49,553 nt of DNA from NCBI GenBank assembly GCA_031286205.1, contig JAITUR010000025.1, forward strand, positions 1-49,553, written 5' to 3'. The position numbers and the translations under genes are program-made. Positions 38,302 through 46,839 of this stretch are shown one piece after another. Source of the stretch: Treponema sp. Its GTDB lineage: Bacteria > Spirochaetota > Spirochaetia > Treponematales > Breznakiellaceae. A model generated the notes under the pieces. It was not told where the DNA came from and did no database searches. It worked only from the letters and a program-made list of their open reading frames with translations. How positions within the stretch are numbered: position 1 is the stretch's first letter; the number at the start of each line of letters is the position of its first letter.

Positions 38302-38676
38302 ATGCTAAAAAAATATTGTCTTTATATACTCCGTTGGCAGTTAAGTACGCCAATTCTGTATGGCGTAATTTGGCTTCTTACCGGACATATAAATGCAATA
38401 TGGATAACGATTATTGCAAACTTTATAGGCGCGCTTATCTTTTTTTGGGTAGACAAATTTATTTTCCGCAACCGCCGTTCCCGCAACCCCCTTTGGGAAA
38501 TAAAAGAGGGCGTTAGTTGTCATGACTGCGGAGTTATCAGCAAGGGGTATCGCATTGTAGAATGGCAGGGTTATTCCAGAATCGACGATAAAGAACCTGA
38601 ATACCGTTGTAAAGATTGCAGCGCAAAAAAACTTCTACAGGTGGAGAAGTTGCTGCAGTATGGAACAAAACTGTGA
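38302..38676 (+). CDS. membrane protein with a C-terminal zinc-ribbon-like domain
   Basis: 124 aa, starting four bases after htpG. Two hydrophobic segments (residues about 12-28, TPILYGVIWLLTGHI, and 31-53, IWITIIANFIGALIFFWV) are followed by VSCHDCG and YRCKDCSAKKL, a C-x2-C / C-x2-C pair that would fit a zinc ribbon. I do not know its function. The stop codon lies inside the first 21-bp repeat of the regulatory module at 38671. Confidence 0.7.
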   Translation: MLKKYCLYILRWQLSTPILYGVIWLLTGHINAIWITIIANFIGALIFFWVDKFIFRNRRSRNPLWEIKEGVSCHDCGVISKGYRIVEWQGYSRIDDKEPEYRCKDCSAKKLLQVEKLLQYGTKL

Positions 38677-38733
38677 GTTTTCTCCCAAAAATACGGCATT
38701 TTCCCTTAAAAATTGTGAGTTTTACCCGGATGT
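38671..38733 (+). promoter_or_regulatory. phased-repeat regulatory module A (three 21-bp repeats)
   Basis: Repeats at 38671-38691, 38692-38712 and 38713-38733. Each holds a TTTT-(n)-CCC core at the same offset, so the cores are exactly 21 bp (two helical turns) apart. Repeats 1 and 3 share TGTGAGTTTT. The same three-repeat block occurs at 40004 and 43222. Directly upstream of the hemerythrin promoter. Confidence 0.8.
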
Positions 38734-38757
38734 TTTATTTATTAATAAATATATAAT
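38730..38757 (+). promoter_or_regulatory. promoter of the hemerythrin-response regulator operon
   Basis: A consensus -10 TATAAT at 38752-38757, but only ATGTTT (38730-38735) in the -35 place, overlapping the end of repeat 3. A weak -35 with an upstream repeat module fits an activator-dependent promoter. GGAGG lies before the ATG at 38778. Confidence 0.6.
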
Positions 38758-38777
38758 ATTACTGTTGGAGGTAGATT

Positions 38778-39365
38778 ATGGAAAATTCGCAATTATCTTA
38801 TGAAGAGCGTCGTACAGGTCAGGATCGCCGCGCTGTGCCGCGTCAAGCAGGCCAGGATCGCCGTGTCGTGCCGCGTCAAAAAGAAGAGCATGTTACCTGG
38901 AGCAATAGATATTCCATGGGAATAAAGTTGATCGATGATCAGCACAAGGGGCTTTTGGATTTTGTAAATGAATTGTTTAATAATTCTACAGGGGACGAAG
39001 AAGCCGAGCGCGAATATTTTAATAAAGTAATGGCCAAGGCTGTGGATTATGTAAAAGTTCACTTTGCAACCGAAGAAAGGTATATGTTAGGAACCGGTTT
39101 CCCAGACTATTTTGCACATAAAAAAACCCACCAGCAATTTATTATAAAAGTAGTAGAATCTATAAAAGATTTTCAAAGAGGAAAAAGACTTGTTCTTGTA
39201 AGTTTTGCAAGGTTTCTTAAAGATTGGGTTTTGTCTCATGTAGCCATGGAAGATGTAAAGTACAGCGAGTATTTTAAAAAAATTGCCACACGAAAATCCG
39301 ATGGCAAATTAAGCATTACCGCAGAGGATATAAAAAAACTGCAGCAGATGGGTCAAAAACCCTAG
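38778..39365 (+). CDS. bacteriohemerythrin
   Basis: 195 aa. Residues about 40-165 form the four-helix hemerythrin fold with the di-iron ligands: IDDQHKGLLDF (His), HFATEERYM (His and Glu), HKKTHQQF (two His) and WVLSHVAMEDVKY (His and Asp). It should bind oxygen or nitric oxide reversibly, as a sensor, store or scavenger. The N-terminal 30 residues carry two 11-residue repeats (GQDRR-VPRQ-) from a 33-bp DNA duplication. GGAGG precedes the ATG. Transcribed with the response regulator nine bases downstream. Confidence 0.92.
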   Translation: MENSQLSYEERRTGQDRRAVPRQAGQDRRVVPRQKEEHVTWSNRYSMGIKLIDDQHKGLLDFVNELFNNSTGDEEAEREYFNKVMAKAVDYVKVHFATEERYMLGTGFPDYFAHKKTHQQFIIKVVESIKDFQRGKRLVLVSFARFLKDWVLSHVAMEDVKYSEYFKKIATRKSDGKLSITAEDIKKLQQMGQKP

Positions 39366-39374
39366 ACAGCGTTT

Positions 39375-39992
39375 ATGGAAGTTTTGTTAATAGATGACCA
39401 TCCAATGTTAAATGCCGGAATAGTATCGATCTTAGAGGCAACCGGCATTTTTACGGTCTGCGGACAAGCGCAGACACTTGCAGAGGCAATGGGCATTATC
39501 GAAAAAGCGGCGCATCAGGAAACATTGCCGGCACTGATTATTCTTGATGTGCTGTTAGGCGAAGAAAACGGACTTAATTTTCTTCCAATGCTGACAAGTT
39601 ATTGTGCCGATAAAAAAATACCCAGGCCGCCTGTGCTGGTTTGCTCCGCCATTGGAGATGCATTTAAAATACAAACTGCCTTAAAATTGGGAGCCGCAGG
39701 TTTTTTGCAAAAGACAGGCGGCAAGGCGGAACTGTTAAAAGCAATAGACACAATACTTGGCGGAAAGGTGTATGTTTCCAGCGAGCTAAGCATCAAATTA
39801 AACGAAACCTCCCATATATACGCAAAGTTTTCCAAACGGGAACTGGATGTAATTAATTTAATTAAGATAAATAAAACAAACAAGCAAATTGCCGAGGCGC
39901 TGCGTATAAGCGTTAAAACCGTAGAAAACTACATTAGTAAAATATACTTTAAAGCCGGCTGTTCAAACCGCGAAGAAGTGCAAAAGCTCTAA
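39375..39992 (+). CDS. LuxR/FixJ-type response regulator
   Basis: 205 aa. Receiver domain: LLIDDHP (acidic pocket), phospho-acceptor Asp in LIILDVLLGEE (near residue 58), Ser in VLVCSA, Lys in GFLQKTGG. The LuxR-type helix-turn-helix is KRELDVINLI...NKQIAEALRISVKTVENYISKIYFKAG. No kinase gene adjoins it; the NarL-type kinase at 45541 also lacks a partner. It sits in the operon of module A and directly before module B, so it is a natural candidate for the protein that binds these repeats. Bases 39781-39815 recur at 42112. Confidence 0.93.
   Translation: MEVLLIDDHPMLNAGIVSILEATGIFTVCGQAQTLAEAMGIIEKAAHQETLPALIILDVLLGEENGLNFLPMLTSYCADKKIPRPPVLVCSAIGDAFKIQTALKLGAAGFLQKTGGKAELLKAIDTILGGKVYVSSELSIKLNETSHIYAKFSKRELDVINLIKINKTNKQIAEALRISVKTVENYISKIYFKAGCSNREEVQKL
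39781..39815 (+). repeat. 35-bp segment of the response regulator gene, duplicated at 42112-42146
   Basis: 34 of 35 bases are the same as at 42112-42146, read in the same frame (SIKLNETSH). This copy is native to the linker before the LuxR helix-turn-helix. Confidence 0.85.
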
Positions 39993-40003
39993 ACCCTCCA
40001 AAG

Positions 40004-40066
40004 TTGTGAGTTTTCTCCCAAAAATACGGCATTTTCCCTTAAAAATTGTGAGTTTTACCCGGATGT
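40004..40066 (+). promoter_or_regulatory. phased-repeat regulatory module B
   Basis: Three 21-bp repeats at 40004-40024, 40025-40045 and 40046-40066, almost base-for-base the same as module A. It begins 12 bases after the response-regulator stop. The -35 position is ATGTTT (40063-40068) and the -10 TACAAT (40086-40091), inside the palindrome TACAATTATTGTA (40086-40098). Confidence 0.8.
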
Positions 40067-40097
40067 TTTAATTAAAATAGTGTTTTACAATTATTGT

Positions 40098-40175
40098 AAA
40101 TTGCCCGTATGGGCGGGTTAAAAATCGTGATTTGCTGTGAAATAGCAGCTTTCATAAAAGAATAGGAGAAGAAAA
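40098..40175 (+). ncRNA. structured 5' leader B (candidate cis-acting RNA)
   Basis: From the predicted +1: hairpin 1 GCCC-GTAT-GGGC (40103-40114), the 19-nt GGGTTAAAAATCGTGATTT, hairpin 2 GCTG ... CAGC (40134-40149), and AGGAGA before the ATG. The leader at 43316 has the same spacing and linker, while hairpin 2 has a different but still paired sequence. It does not match any riboswitch I know. Confidence 0.55.
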
Positions 40176-41348
40176 ATGAAAAGATTTTTAGTTTTTACGC
40201 TAGTGGTTTTAGTGGCATTTATTGGATGTCCCCCTCCCGATACCGGGGGTGAAGTTAACAAGTACAGTGTAACTTTCGACAGCAATGGCGGAAGTGAAGT
40301 AGAGTCTATTGAAAATGTTACTCATGGTTCTACTGTTACGAAACCGGATAATCCAACAAAAAATGGGCACGCATTTAATAACTGGTACAAAAATGAAGAG
40401 CTTACACAGGTTTGGGATTTTGATAATGATACAGTTACAGGTAATATAACTTTATATGCAAAGTGGATTGATACTACCCAGCCACTTCCCTTAACAATTA
40501 ATCTCTGGAACAGCCCCAACTTCTATACCAACGAAGATATTGAATTCGGCGAAGTACTTCCAGGAAATTTTGTTAGCAATTACCTCTATATCGACGATGA
40601 CCACGAATTTGTAGGATTATATCGCAATTATGCCAATCATGTATTTAGCAATGAATGGAATATAAGCTCCCCGATAGAAGAAATTCTAACCCTCTGGGCA
40701 AAATACAAATATAGAGTTACCTTTAATATTGAAGGCAGCGAAGAAGGTATTTGGGTAGCGCACGGAAATAAAGCGGTTTACGAAGGTGATACACCTGAGA
40801 AAGATGGCTGGGAATTTAAAGGCTGGAATTTAGAAGGTTTTGAATTTGACTTTGATACAATAATTACAGAGCCGATTGAATTGGTCGCTAGGTTTGAGGA
40901 AAAAGCGGCTAATACTGGTGATTTCTACTGGGGAGCTTTCTGGCCTAACGATTCAACAACAGAAGGTAATGCTAACTTTACAGCATTTAGTATCGATGGT
41001 TTAACAGCAATATTAAATGGTGGACCAATGAGTGACCACTATCCTGGTGATGGTGGCGGTTATGTATACGGTGCTGATAATGGTGGAACAGGTATTATAG
41101 ATAGATTATCTACCGAAACAACTGAAAAAGAAAATAAAAGCATTACTTGGAATAATCAAATTGGATATTATTTCATTATTACACCTGAAGAATTTGGTGA
41201 TATAGTTATAGAGCAATCAGGAACTCCATTATATCCTGGAGTAACTTGGACTAGATATAGTGAAATAATAAATGGTCAATCAAGTTATATTTATGTATTT
41301 AATGTAAATATAAATCCCTATAATGCCACACACGATGTAAAATATTAA
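40176..41348 (+). CDS. lipoprotein with InlB-type (Listeria-Bacteroides) repeats
   Basis: 390 aa. Lipoprotein signal ending VAFIGC. Residues about 28-94 are a clear InlB B-repeat (YSVTFDSNGGSEVESIENV, then FNNWYKNEELTQVWDFDNDTVTGNITLYAKW), followed by a degenerate repeat (to about 172) and a third (YRVTFNIEGSEEG ... WEFKGWNLEG). The last 145 residues (GDFYWGAFWPND...) are not recognised, are more A/T-rich in codon use, and may be a separate ligand-binding domain. Surface adhesion or protein binding is the usual guess for such repeats. Preceded by module B and followed by a strong terminator. Confidence 0.8.
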   Translation: MKRFLVFTLVVLVAFIGCPPPDTGGEVNKYSVTFDSNGGSEVESIENVTHGSTVTKPDNPTKNGHAFNNWYKNEELTQVWDFDNDTVTGNITLYAKWIDTTQPLPLTINLWNSPNFYTNEDIEFGEVLPGNFVSNYLYIDDDHEFVGLYRNYANHVFSNEWNISSPIEEILTLWAKYKYRVTFNIEGSEEGIWVAHGNKAVYEGDTPEKDGWEFKGWNLEGFEFDFDTIITEPIELVARFEEKAANTGDFYWGAFWPNDSTTEGNANFTAFSIDGLTAILNGGPMSDHYPGDGGGYVYGADNGGTGIIDRLSTETTEKENKSITWNNQIGYYFIITPEEFGDIVIEQSGTPLYPGVTWTRYSEIINGQSSYIYVFNVNINPYNATHDVKY

Positions 41349-41352
41349 ACAC

Positions 41353-41380
41353 AAAAACCCCGGTCATTCCGGGGTTTTTT
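41353..41380 (+). terminator. Rho-independent terminator after the InlB-repeat gene
   Basis: AAAAACCCCGG, 5-nt loop, CCGGGGTTTTTT: a perfect stem with a T tail. Confidence 0.95.
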
Positions 41381-41396
41381 ATTGGTTTAAAATGAA

Positions 41397-41443
41397 CGAG
41401 GGCGTATATTCCGAATGAGTTACCCTCGGGGGAATATACGCCC
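41397..41443. repeat. long hairpin with two competing stems
   Basis: GGGCGTATATTCC (41400-41412) pairs perfectly with GGAATATACGCCC (41431-41443). An alternative stem CGAGGG (41397-41402) / CCCTCG (41423-41428) overlaps the first and cannot form with it. It lies in the 300-base gap 41349-41651, which has no gene. Confidence 0.7.
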
Positions 41444-41462
41444 AAATCCGCGGAGGCGAATT

Positions 41463-41557
41463 AACTAATATCGGGCTTTGCTCTACTACCAGATGCACAT
41501 CTGGTAGTACCACCAGATGTGAGAAACCACCAATTAGAGTTATCTCCGATATTAGTT
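41463..41557. repeat. nested inverted repeats
   Basis: Outer arms AACTAATATCGG (41463-41474) and CCGATATTAGTT (41546-41557) are a perfect 12-bp inverted repeat. They enclose a perfect inner hairpin, TACTACCAGATG-CA-CATCTGGTAGTA (41484-41509), and a third partial ACCAGATGTG at 41512. About 95 bp in all; the arms are not flanked by a recognisable transposase gene. Mobile-element remnant or structured RNA. Confidence 0.7.
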
Positions 41558-41651
41558 GGAATAAAAATAAATTTTTAGTATCTTTTTATAACTTTTCAAA
41601 GTAATTGAAATCTTAATACTAATTATTAAGAAATGAATCGAGGAGAAATAA

Positions 41652-42155
41652 ATGATTAAACAACCGTGGCCATATAGTTTTGATTTAAGCGTAGCACAAC
41701 CAGTTGATGCTAAGGGATTATTTGATAGTTTAGAACAAGCAAAAGAACAGATACCTGGAAATACAAGATTTAAGGGACAAAAATTTACTGTTAGGGGAAA
41801 TGATGGCGAACAACCACAGGAGTTCTGGTTTATAAAAGATTATATTCCTGCTGTAAGACAGCCTACCCCTCCTTTTGCTATAATCGAACCTGAATTTGTT
41901 CCTGACCCAGTTCCCTACCTACCCGAAGTAGAAGGTTACAACGATGGGGAACTTAGAATCGCTATTACTGGAATTTCTGGAGATTTAAACGGGCATATTA
42001 CTGATATAACTGACACGCCCCACGGGATTAGCGGTCATATAGTCGCTCATAATGAAGAGCCAACAGCTCACGGCATTGACCAACTTAATGGCGAGACTCT
42101 TAAAATTGCCGGCGAGATAAGCATCAAATTAAACGAAACCTCCCATGAACAGTAA
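41652..42155 (+). CDS. small protein of unknown function, phage-tail-fibre-like, with a foreign C-terminus
   Basis: 167 aa with an AGGAGA site; no signal peptide. The middle is Pro-rich (PAVRQPTPPFAIIEPEFVPDPVP) and the later part has His/Gly-spaced segments (DTPHGISGHIVAHNEEPTAHGIDQLNG) of the kind seen in phage tail-fibre or collar proteins; that is a resemblance, not an assignment. The last twelve codons (GEISIKLNETSH plus EQ) derive from the response-regulator gene: 35 bp with one mismatch, same frame. So the 3' end looks replaced by recombination. Confidence 0.5.
   Translation: MIKQPWPYSFDLSVAQPVDAKGLFDSLEQAKEQIPGNTRFKGQKFTVRGNDGEQPQEFWFIKDYIPAVRQPTPPFAIIEPEFVPDPVPYLPEVEGYNDGELRIAITGISGDLNGHITDITDTPHGISGHIVAHNEEPTAHGIDQLNGETLKIAGEISIKLNETSHEQ
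42112..42146 (+). repeat. copy of the response-regulator segment at the 3' end of the 41652 gene
   Basis: 34 of 35 bases match 39781-39815 in the same reading frame. It is directly followed by two codons and a stop. Confidence 0.85.
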
Positions 42156-42175
42156 GTTGAAAAATGGAGTTAGGG

Positions 42176-42205
42176 AACTTCTAAAAACTTCAGTTTTTAG
42201 AAGTT
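42176..42205. repeat. perfect 13-bp hairpin
   Basis: AACTTCTAAAAAC, TTCA loop, GTTTTTAGAAGTT, then TTCG. It could end transcription of the 41652 gene, though the stem is A/T-rich. The rest of the gap 42206-42460 has no gene I can support. Confidence 0.6.
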
Positions 42206-42460
42206 TTCGTAACCCTGAAGAAAACCGCTGATTAGATAAATCCTTGTGTTGTAACGAATTAGCGGTTGTGCAGATTGGGTTGCGGTGTAATTGCGCGAGA
42301 AAAACCCTCAATGATAATCAACAATTTCTACATCAAAAGCATTAGTCTTTTCCCATAACTAAAGCTGCTTTAAGGGGGATTATTTTTTAGGTCTTTTTGA
42401 AGTTTACATTTTGCGGCTATTCGTTCAAACAACGCTAAATAGGCTTAGTCTTTACCAACA

Positions 42461-42862
42461 CTATAACCAGTTTACAAATTTTAAATTTGGAATACTCTTA
42501 AAATGTTTTTCATTATTTGTAACAAGAGTAATATCATGATAAATACAAAATGAAGCGATTAAAATGTCATTATCTCCTATGACAATGCCTTTTTTTTGAC
42601 AATTGGAATATGTTGCAGCGGCGATTTCGAGCGTTTCTTTTTCAATTGCACAAATACCAGATAGTGAACACATATACTCAAAGATTGCCAATTTTTTACT
42701 GGCATTGATCGTTAATAACCACCGTTTTATTTCATAAAATACCATTGGTGGAATGACAATTGTATTAGAATTATCAGCCTCAGTGGAAACACGATTAATT
42801 ATGTCTTTATTGCCCTTTAAGTAATAAGTTACAATATCGGTATCAAGAGCGTATTTATTCAT
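42461..42862 (-). CDS. vapC: PIN-domain toxin (VapC family)
   Basis: 133 aa, predicted metal-dependent ribonuclease of a type II toxin-antitoxin pair. The acidic residues of the PIN fold are visible: YALDTDIVTYYLKG (first Asp), a Glu in FYEIKRWLL, and GDNDILIASFCIYHDITLVTNNEKHF (C-terminal Asp pair). Start overlaps the antitoxin stop (ATGA). It looks intact, unlike the VapC at 44129. Confidence 0.9.
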   Translation of the reverse strand: MNKYALDTDIVTYYLKGNKDIINRVSTEADNSNTIVIPPMVFYEIKRWLLTINASKKLAIFEYMCSLSGICAIEKETLEIAAATYSNCQKKGIVIGDNDILIASFCIYHDITLVTNNEKHFKSIPNLKFVNWL

Positions 42863-43104
42863 AAAGTTTCTATTTCTTTAATTGTTCTAAATTGAACAGT
42901 TGCAGGACAGCCTGTTAATTTTTCATCGCAGTTAAGTATTGCCTCGCCTATTTCTCGCCATTTATTTTCAGTAGTTTTTTTTGTTATAATATCTTTGCCA
43001 AGGCTATCCTCTATTGTAACTAATACCTTTTTTTTCTGCGGTATGGAAACCGGACTATCGGGGATAAAACGCTCATTATCAAATATTCCTGTTACAACTA
43101 GCAT
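42859..43104 (-). CDS. vapB: antitoxin of the VapC pair (DUF104/AF2212-like)
   Basis: 81 aa from the ATG at 43104, with GGAGG upstream. MLVVTGIFDNERFIPDSPVSIPQKKK (here shown in part as VVTGIFDNERFIPDSPV) is the short beta-hairpin start of DUF104-type antitoxins, followed by VLVTIED and a helical, Lys/Glu-rich tail that should wrap the toxin. A longer frame runs upstream into module C and is not used. Confidence 0.8.
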   Translation of the reverse strand: MLVVTGIFDNERFIPDSPVSIPQKKKVLVTIEDSLGKDIITKKTTENKWREIGEAILNCDEKLTGCPATVQFRTIKEIETL

Positions 43105-43138
43105 ATATACCTCCAAAATGTACTTTTCTATACACAAT

Positions 43139-43167
43139 AATATACCACTTTTAAGACTTTTGGGCAA
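43139..43167 (-). promoter_or_regulatory. promoter of the vapBC operon
   Basis: Minus strand: TTGCCC (43167-43162), 17-bp spacer, TATATT (43144-43139). Predicted +1 near 43132, a normal leader of about 28 nt with GGAGG. It lies back-to-back with module C (43222). Confidence 0.65.
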
Positions 43168-43221
43168 CCTTCTACAAGTGGAGTGAGCTGCTTTATCAGT
43201 TAATGCAGAAACCCTCCAAAG

Positions 43222-43284
43222 TTGTGAGTTTTTTCCCAAAAATATGACATTCCCCCTTAAAAATTGTGAGTTTTACCCGGATGT
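43222..43284 (+). promoter_or_regulatory. phased-repeat regulatory module C
   Basis: Three 21-bp repeats at 43222-43242, 43243-43263 and 43264-43284; a few bases differ from A and B in repeats 1 and 2. The match to B begins earlier, at AAACCCTCCAAAG. -35 position ATGTTT (43281-43286), -10 TACAAT (43304-43309) within TACAATTATTGTA. Confidence 0.8.
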
Positions 43285-43315
43285 TTTAATGCAAATTGCA
43301 TTTTACAATTATTGT

Positions 43316-43390
43316 AAATCTGCCTGTATGGGCGGGTTAAAAATCGTGATTTCCTGCCGCAAAAGCAGGGTTCGCAAAAAGGAGTGTTTT
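43316..43390 (+). ncRNA. structured 5' leader C (candidate cis-acting RNA)
   Basis: Hairpin 1 GCCT-GTAT-GGGC (43322-43333; U-G pair where B has C-G), the same 19-nt linker, then hairpin 2 CCTGC ... GCAGG (43353-43369). The stem of hairpin 2 differs in sequence from leader B but still pairs. AGGAG precedes the ATG. Confidence 0.55.
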
Positions 43391-43855
43391 ATGAAAAACA
43401 CAGTTAAATTTATAGGGATTATTGCTTTGGTTGCGATGATCGGGTTTGCAATGGCAGGCTGTTCGGGTGGAGCAATTAAAAGCCAATCCACTTATTACGG
43501 AACATGGACTCAGGACGACAGCAATGAACGATGGCAAATAGATTCAGAATCGCTTACATTTCGTGATAGAGGTTCTTTTGCTGGATTTACGGCTCATTTT
43601 ACTGTTAAATTTACTCCTGTAGAGTGGACTGCTGTGAAACAAAACGAGGCAATATCTGAGAGCAGAAGAAATACAGAAGTATATAATAACGATGGTTATA
43701 AAATTACAGGCACTGTTACTGAGAGTGATATGGAGTACACTTACACAGTTGGTGAGCCATATTCCTTATTTATATTTTTTAGCAAAACTGAACCATCAGT
43801 TGCAAGGTTTAGCGTTGGCAGTGATGGATCGCCAAAAATATTTACCAAGCAGTAA
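43391..43855 (+). CDS. small lipoprotein under module C, unknown function
   Basis: 154 aa. Lipoprotein signal MKNTVKFIGIIALVAMIGFAMAGC (Cys in MAGC). The mature chain starts with YYGTWTQDDSNERWQIDSESLTFRD and continues as strands; this GTW...D.. opening is like small lipocalin-type stress or copy-number lipoproteins but I cannot assign it. Start 43391 is set by AGGAG; the longer frame would run through the regulatory leader. Confidence 0.75.
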   Translation: MKNTVKFIGIIALVAMIGFAMAGCSGGAIKSQSTYYGTWTQDDSNERWQIDSESLTFRDRGSFAGFTAHFTVKFTPVEWTAVKQNEAISESRRNTEVYNNDGYKITGTVTESDMEYTYTVGEPYSLFIFFSKTEPSVARFSVGSDGSPKIFTKQ

Positions 43856-45540: not shown

Positions 45541-46839
45541 ATGAGAATGGTTTTATGTGTATTACTTGCTGCTCTCTTTTTATCCTGCGCTGGCCGGGAT
45601 AAGCTGCCCCAAGGATTGGAAAAACCCGATCCGCCCAATATACAGGACATAGTAAACCGGTGGATCGACATCGAGCAGCGTTTTACCGCAGATATGGATG
45701 CAAATTCAATCGAAGTTTTGATAGATAAAATTGATGTTTTTTACTTGTCTCTTCAGCAATTTCAGGGATCAACATTATTTCATACATACAGAGCTATTCT
45801 TTTTTCGCCTCATACCGAACGAAACCTTATGACATATCCTCTTGCGGATATTCAGGAAGCCGGAATTGTTTCGGATTTGACATTGGTTTTTCGCGATTCC
45901 ATTGCTTCCGGAGATGTAGAAAGGGCAAGAGCAGTGTCGGCTGAAATTTCCGGAAGCCTTATCCGTCTACTAATGATTGATATTGATGCTCAGCGGTATG
46001 TCAGCACCTCTTATTTTCGCCTGCTTATTACGCTCAGTATATTTATCGTAATTATTGCGCTGCTTATCTGGTTTTTATACAAGTCTTTTACCCGTTCGTT
46101 AATGCGGGAAACTGAAAAAACAATTTTTTCGCACGCTTATATGCTTGCTCAGGATGAAGAACGCTCCAGAATTAGCCGCGAATTGCACGATACGATAATT
46201 CAGGATTTACGCTATTTGCTTTTAGAAACAGAGAAGATAGGCAACACGGAAGAAAAAACCGAAAGAGAAAAGTTAAGCGAAAAAACAATACCATTAATGG
46301 CAGGTCTTATTAGAAAAACAAGGGATATATGCAACGAACTTATTCCGCCGGATTTTCGTTTTAGCGAATTGCCCGATGCTATAAGACAGCTTTGTCTTGA
46401 TTTTGGCAAAAAAACAGGGATAGATTGCCATGCGGAAATTGATGGTGATGTCAAGCTTGAATTTCTTACTATGGAAAAACGGCTGCAAGTTTACCGGATT
46501 ATCCAGGAAGCTCTTACAAATATAGAAAAACATGCCAACGCAAACGAGGCGATTGTTACCATGCGTTTAGGAAAAAATGATACTGAAAGTGCCGGGACAG
46601 TTTTTGTAGGCATCAGTGATGACGGCAAAGGTTTTTTATCGCCCTTGGGTAAGAGCGGGCAAATTACAAGCGGCATTGATAAATCCCATATAGGTATTAT
46701 AAGTATGAAGGAGCGCGCCGCAATACTTGGCGGTATTTTTAAGATAAAGAGCGAGCCGGGAGAAGGCACTTTAGTTTGCTTGGAATTCCCGGCGTATAAA
46801 AATGTAAAAGAAGAAAGCAATGAAAATATTGCTAATTAA
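45541..46839 (+). CDS. NarL-type sensor histidine kinase with lipoprotein N-terminus
   Basis: 432 aa. The start, MRMVLCVLLAALFLSCAGRD, is a lipoprotein-like signal with Cys after FLS. Residues 20-160 are an extracytoplasmic helical domain I do not recognise; one membrane segment follows (LITLSIFIVIIALLIWFLY), then HisKA_3 with the phospho-His in ERSRISRELHDTIIQDL and a HATPase domain (ALTNIEKHANANEA, GISDDGKGF, GIISMKERAAILGG). No regulator gene follows, though the bases after 46820 encode MKILLIKEIL and a stop, like the first residues of a response regulator. The LuxR regulator at 39375 is the only orphan partner in view. Confidence 0.9.
   Translation: MRMVLCVLLAALFLSCAGRDKLPQGLEKPDPPNIQDIVNRWIDIEQRFTADMDANSIEVLIDKIDVFYLSLQQFQGSTLFHTYRAILFSPHTERNLMTYPLADIQEAGIVSDLTLVFRDSIASGDVERARAVSAEISGSLIRLLMIDIDAQRYVSTSYFRLLITLSIFIVIIALLIWFLYKSFTRSLMRETEKTIFSHAYMLAQDEERSRISRELHDTIIQDLRYLLLETEKIGNTEEKTEREKLSEKTIPLMAGLIRKTRDICNELIPPDFRFSELPDAIRQLCLDFGKKTGIDCHAEIDGDVKLEFLTMEKRLQVYRIIQEALTNIEKHANANEAIVTMRLGKNDTESAGTVFVGISDDGKGFLSPLGKSGQITSGIDKSHIGIISMKERAAILGGIFKIKSEPGEGTLVCLEFPAYKNVKEESNENIAN

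Follow-up and report, generated by a model that had tools for sequence, protein, structure and literature searches.

We analysed a stretch of 49,553 nucleotides from Treponema sp. (assembly GCA_031286205.1, contig JAITUR010000025.1, positions 1 to 49,553 of the forward strand; hereafter the window), in which three 63-bp blocks, at 38671, 40004 and 43222, each have a gene downstream on the plus strand. The first block (module a) precedes a bacteriohemerythrin gene (38778..39365; PF01814, NF033749), followed by the gene of a NarL/LuxR-type response regulator, RR-A (39375..39992; PF00072, PF00196), which we propose as the regulator of the modules. Module b stands before the gene of a predicted lipoprotein with Listeria-Bacteroides repeats (PF09479; 40176..41348), and module c before that of a small predicted lipoprotein (43391..43855). 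Further along, also on the plus strand, lies a HisKA_3-type histidine kinase gene, HK-A (45541..46839; PF07730, PF02518; lipobox-like cysteine at the N-terminus), encoding the likely cognate sensor. A preliminary description of this sequence had already placed the three blocks ahead of the hemerythrin and response regulator, the repeat lipoprotein and the small lipoprotein, and we find them there. Its promoter spacing was reproduced as well: TATAAT at 38752-38757 and TACAAT at 40086-40091 and 43304-43309 lie 39-40 bp from the start of the third of the 21-bp repeats into which it had divided each block, with a poor -35 hexamer, ATGTTT, 16-17 bp upstream of each -10 box.

Comparison with relatives resolves each block into two 16-bp sites. 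In module a, site 1 (38672..38687) is a degenerate palindrome, TGTGAGTTTTCTCCCA, that aligns with the palindromes of relatives, and site 2 (38714..38729), TGTGAGTTTTACCCGG, follows 42 bp after it; the -10 box stands at offset 38 from the start of site 2, an offset that we compared with those of 20 other modules. Sites 1 and 2 lie at 40005..40020 and 40047..40062 in module b and at 43223..43238 and 43265..43280 in module c. Setting the last -10 base at -7, we computed centres for module b of about -43.5 (site 2) and -85.5 (site 1) relative to the predicted start. The three copies are near-identical, with 88% identity between b and c (167 bp) and 96% between a and b (76 bp), and fall into one repeat-finder family. 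Because they are such recent duplicates of one another, they count as about one observation, and we dropped them as independent support. A fourth, more divergent copy lies on contig C45 of the same genome (~609-675), and its site 1, TGTGAGAAAACTCACA, is an exact TGTGA-N6-TCACA. The palindrome is hidden in the window copies because the right halves of both their sites are degenerate.

The design was taken from 14 aligned blocks, including four of this genome, which share the order site 1, spacer, site 2 and -10 box. Site 1 is a 16-bp palindrome, TGTGCGTWWACGCACA, with the consensus TGTGCG-N4-CGCACA in relatives, and site 2 is TGTGMGTTTTACMCG, written in the alignment of the 14 blocks as TGTGMGTTTTACACG(G/C). 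Spacing was counted in scanned loci without being preset, and L158 was dropped as a copy of L138. Among 26 distinct site-2 places, site 1 began at offset -42 in 21 and at -41 in two, with single cases at -23 (G020:C116) and -25 (L172) and one in which it was not found (G030). For offset and conservation counts, 23 modules were reduced to 20 by leaving out window modules a and c and L125 as near-duplicates; this set admits spacings of 41 and 42 only. A -10-like hexamer (at least 4 of 6 positions) stood at offset 39 from the start of site 2 in 16 of these 20 modules, while no other offset reached more than six (our own count). Information content was 1.1-2.0 bits in 29 of the 32 site columns, compared with 0.2-1.1 bits in 18 spacer columns, and the A run immediately before site 2 was also conserved. 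The resulting promoter layout is a 16-bp upstream palindrome, a second site abutting the -35 place, a poor -35 and a -10 box at a fixed distance, with predicted starts.

The three equivalent 21-bp repeats of the preliminary description did not stand as stated, although repeats 1 and 3 do match at 13-14 of 21 positions (shuffle fraction at most 0.00025). In the three copies, repeat 2 matched repeat 1 at 12, 13 and 9 of 21 positions (shuffle fractions 0.0043, 0.0013 and 0.09) and repeat 3 at 9, 9 and 6 (0.048, 0.052 and 0.36). No GTG(A/C/T)GT or AC(A/G/T)CAC half-site was present in the middle stretch of any of 15 modules from relatives. Against a two-site reading, the likeness of the middle 21-mer to the first exceeded the shuffle mean in 14 of these 15 modules, and its likeness to the third did so in nine; by eye, this is mostly due to a TT at the start and a run of A at the end. 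We rejected three equivalent repeats for the A-type module since the middle stretch lacks a conserved half-site, with the caveat that the A runs keep a degree of 21-bp periodicity. What is conserved instead is a pair of sites 42 bp apart, the middle 'repeat' being a spacer of weak conservation. Three-site variants with a spacing of ~23-24 bp were seen behind a paralogous regulator (G010:C106), at a contig end (G010:C132) and at G020:C116.

Relatives were searched for the block, as the preliminary description had suggested, in 195 genomes of the family, largely incomplete assemblies. The exact site-2 pattern TGTGMGTTTTACMCKSWT occurred at 21 places in 10 of them, all in this genus, and the reversed pattern at none, an excess over chance. 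Requiring both sites, separated by a gap of variable length, gave 11 places in seven genomes (control 0); the window copies do not match this stricter pattern. A block profile had strong matches (E < 1e-10) in 10 of the 39 genomes of the genus, and four strong modules are present in the genome of the window (94% complete assembly). RR-A (at least 71% identity) was found in nine of the 10 site-2 genomes, and by our own tally 16 of the 21 site-2 places share a contig with it. Diverged versions of the block lie close to most RR-A orthologues, and the named matches to these diverged relatives are Treponema metagenome-assembled genomes (MAGs). Across the 39 genus genomes, nine have both module and RR-A, one the motif only, one the regulator only and 28 neither (Fisher p 4.6e-7); taking in the kinase and the profile search changes the table to 10/1/1/27 (p 1.8e-7), both values being optimistic because related genomes share ancestry and are not independent samples. 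In G014 and G010 modules lie at the ends of contigs, which suggests that the module counts are too low.

RR-A has PF00072 (3.8e-17) and PF00196 (7.2e-13), both above cut-off, and matches VraR, DevR and NarL chains by sequence. Orthologues with 71-78% identity are present in eight genomes of the same genus, besides a truncated one in G017. The named records at least 52% identical to it comprise 15 MAG contigs of Treponema and one of Spirochaetaceae, with isolate codes that we take to denote termite guts. It falls under the cut-offs of the NarL model (76 of 250 bits) and of the UvrY/SirA/GacA model (70.5 of 280 bits, though with E 1.6e-19), and among the 25 listed of 52 matched NCBIfam models it reaches the cut-off of none. 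Judged from these matches, RR-A is a NarL/LuxR-type regulator and not a NarL or UvrY member. A 41-bp segment of its gene (39775-39815) is repeated at 93% identity at 42106-42146, the 3' end of an open reading frame (ORF) at 41652-42155 that looks chimeric, in a region that looks locally duplicated.

In HK-A, PF07730 and PF02518 score above cut-off, and a search for sensor domains gave no Pfam match above cut-off outside these kinase domains. Nine of the 39 genomes, this one included, contain a relative of at least 58% identity. Kinase and regulator are neighbours in G020, G030 and G007, and modules lie between them in the window and in G013, G018 and G010. HK-A is likely the cognate sensor of RR-A. 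Its N-terminus (window 45541-45588, LFLSC) is a short lipobox-like signal whose closing F-x-S-C, with its cysteine, is invariant in seven of seven aligned HK-A sequences; an eighth ends in PSC.

A list of downstream genes, also proposed in the preliminary description, showed that modules stand before genes and that these mostly encode predicted lipoproteins. We examined 23 type-A modules, five of which have no accepted downstream ORF. A lipobox ORF follows 13 of the other 18 (12 if L129, place 3007, by eye an ordinary membrane protein, is removed), compared with 57 of 1076 random positions (5.3%). The exceptions are the hemerythrin behind window module a, proteins of G020 that are secreted or lie in the membrane, an ORF of uncertain status in G013 and a just-missed lipobox in G006. 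The C45 module precedes a predicted lipoprotein resembling the one at window 40176 (40-42% in two stretches). By eye, 40176-41348 and the C45 gene (L007, 743-1837) are closely similar in a C-terminal stretch and differ in their N-terminal parts, which suggests mosaic exchange. Within the hemerythrin gene, two tandem 33-bp units (38807-38872, 79%) encode a charged RRTGQDRR-type N-terminus. A hemerythrin 57% like that of the window lies at L125 (G014:C53, 1681-2946), ~0.7 kb upstream of a contig-end A-type module, with a toxin-antitoxin-like gene pair (by eye) in between. On the minus strand of the window, between modules b and c (42461-43239), a PIN-domain gene and a small upstream partner ORF probably form a toxin-antitoxin pair.

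A related operator accompanies paralogous regulators (RR-B), which are 53-58% identical to RR-A. In this B type, found directly behind RR-B in G010, G014 and G035, site 2 is one base shorter. The B pattern CGTGYGTTCACACKG occurred at eight places in seven of the 195 genomes (control 0). Six of the eight share a contig with a gene of the regulator family (45-61% identity) at 0.02 to 8.1 kb: less than 0.1 kb in G035 and G010:C106, 0.1 kb in G180, 0.7 kb in G011, 2.7 kb in G166 and 8.1 kb in G030:C18. At the seventh (G033:C51), the preceding sequence resembles by eye the RR-B gene of G010 at its 3' end, and the eighth lies at a contig end in G010. Among six B places with enough downstream sequence, an ORF follows at 96-116 bp; five of these ORFs pass the test for a lipobox, and in the remaining one a hydrophobic stretch comes further on. 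A scan of more distant regulator loci returned five strand-wise matches to the palindrome at three sites (G036, G211 and G190), ~50-100 bp upstream of the regulator gene. The same pattern gave no match in 133.6 kb of own-genome control, a supportive but small sample.

The analysis shows the sequence and spacing of the sites, how well they are conserved, that they are linked to the genes of the regulator and the kinase, and that lipoproteins are enriched downstream; we infer binding, phosphorylation, activation rather than repression, feedback and the signal. The blocks are probably the operator-promoters of a small regulon under a two-component system of kinase 45541 and regulator 39375, which would activate the promoter. 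The preliminary description had proposed an activator operator with the 39375 protein as candidate; comparative evidence from conservation, linkage and co-occurrence supports this proposal well, on a two-site architecture and not as three phased 21-bp repeats. In the predicted scheme, HK-A would sense an envelope signal and phosphorylate RR-A, dimers of which would bind the upstream palindrome (~-85.5) and the second site abutting the poor -35 (~-43.5). At 42 bp, about four helical turns, the two sites would face the same side of the helix, and bound regulator would recruit RNA polymerase to the -10 box. The genes turned on would be those of predicted lipoproteins and, in this genome, also of the hemerythrin and of the regulator itself, giving positive feedback.

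Several observations weigh against this scheme. Site 2 is an imperfect dyad and no clean palindrome. The genome searches scored only the best candidates from an initial pass, 108 per genome for the block profile and 16 per genome for the regulator. G016 (68% complete) has a full module, with neither RR-A nor HK-A found, and G027 (94% complete) has two degenerate modules and the kinase, with no RR-A found. G017 carries RR-A, directly behind which stands only a site 2 with mismatches; G006 (70% complete) has RR-A and a module, with no kinase match; and the kinase match of G018 contains an in-frame TGA. Within 420 bp behind the RR-B genes of G020:C14 and G030:C18 no operator was found, and 16 of the 19 more distant regulator loci (L270-L285, L075-L077) have no such palindrome by pattern. 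At L172, a regulator 52% identical to RR-A is accompanied by the palindrome and a site 2 of A length, so the sorting into A and B is not clean. The G027 modules (L135, G027:C245), with degenerate site 2, share a short contig with the orthologue of the kinase and are possibly decaying operators.

A more specific extension of the regulon reading is that HK-A, if lipidated, would itself be a lipoprotein controlling lipoprotein genes and might use its lipid anchor to monitor the processing or the load of lipoproteins, and that operators split into A and B codes, one base different, might follow the paralogous regulators to form insulated lipoprotein regulons in these spirochaetes. We regard this as doubtful. 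Three kinases beside paralogous regulators (G020:C14, G030:C18 and G011) have no clear lipobox, and L172 breaks the A/B sorting; a more distant kinase (G028) does carry a lipobox.

The sites could alternatively be operators of the CRP/FNR family, TGTGA-N6-TCACA in class II/III positions, with the linked response regulator merely a target. CRP recognizes TGTGA-N6-TCACA, and its class II/III promoters combine TGTGA-like half-sites, a site beside the -35 (near -41.5) and a helically phased one four turns upstream. The modules share such half-sites, a site next to the -35 and a phased upstream site. Site 1 of C45 matches the consensus exactly, and in window modules a, b and c it fits in nine of 10 fixed positions, a match that made us raise this explanation and lower the two-component one. 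Domains binding cyclic nucleotides are also abundant in this genome (nine matches). They occur, however, in 39 of the 39 genus genomes (subfamilies pooled), whereas the module follows RR-A; the consensus in relatives is TGTGCG-N4-CGCACA, and paralogous regulators have their own operator form nearby. The consensus of the relatives favours the response regulator, as do linkage and phylogenetic pattern, and we consider a CRP/FNR operator unlikely. It seems equally improbable that RR-A binds the modules as a repressor of its targets, or as repressor and activator both. The sites do closely flank the promoter, and NarL can act as activator or repressor (PMC7419079), but the poor -35 and consistent -10 offset point to an activator-dependent promoter, in which site 2 lies upstream of the -10 box without covering it.

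We weighed two further explanations and rejected both. A dispersed repeat or a mobile promoter cassette, spread through recombination and lacking a dedicated regulator, would fit the near-identical duplicates in the window and the copies ending within ~25 bp of a contig edge (G014:C53, G010:C106 and G010:C132); this origin of the block is very unlikely, since both 16-bp sites and their spacing are kept across genomes while the spacer drifts, and copies precede genes, largely on the regulator contig. The other explanation makes site 1 an RNA hairpin or a terminator for the gene upstream of it, and site 1 does directly follow the regulator stop codon in several genomes, with a T run after it in C45. 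By eye, the other listed copies have no comparable T run directly after site 1, whose distance to site 2 and the -10 box is nearly constant and which also occurs divergent from the regulator, making a hairpin or terminator scarcely credible.

The two-site arrangement proposed for RR-A resembles that of Escherichia coli NarL. According to PMC7419079, NarL at ogt binds tandem 16-bp inverted-repeat sites of the 7-2-7 type centred at -44.5 and -77.5, one abutting the -35, while the introduction of that paper places the second site 43 bp upstream. Both systems would pair a NarL-family regulator with tandem 16-bp sites, one abutting the -35 and one upstream. Here, by contrast, the centres computed from the -10 box are ~-43.5 and ~-85.5, the half-site is TGTGMGT, the target genes are others and the regulator scores below the NarL model cut-off. 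The NarL heptamer differs from TGTGMGT. RR-A presumably belongs to the same broad response-regulator family as UvrY/SirA/GacA. According to PMC4682653, UvrY drives the small RNAs csrB and csrC through half-sites TGTGAG or TGTAAG, and its site at E. coli csrB, TGTGAGAGATCTCTTACA, is an 18-nt inverted repeat at ~-183. This site shares the TGTGAG half-site with the window copies; UvrY binds far upstream, unlike the 16-bp, tandem, promoter-proximal sites before lipoprotein genes described here. In a literature search that covered listings and parts of papers, no account of such an operator or of its regulon turned up, and passages of PMC12724145, on T. denticola TrtA, contain nothing that bears on the operator.

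The proposed regulon is new, but the type of switch is known from other bacteria. With it, uncultured treponemes gain a testable regulon comprising a regulator, a kinase, a two-site operator and predicted surface lipoprotein targets. Operator types A and B, each beside paralogous regulators, offer a natural case of a regulator and its operator diverging together.

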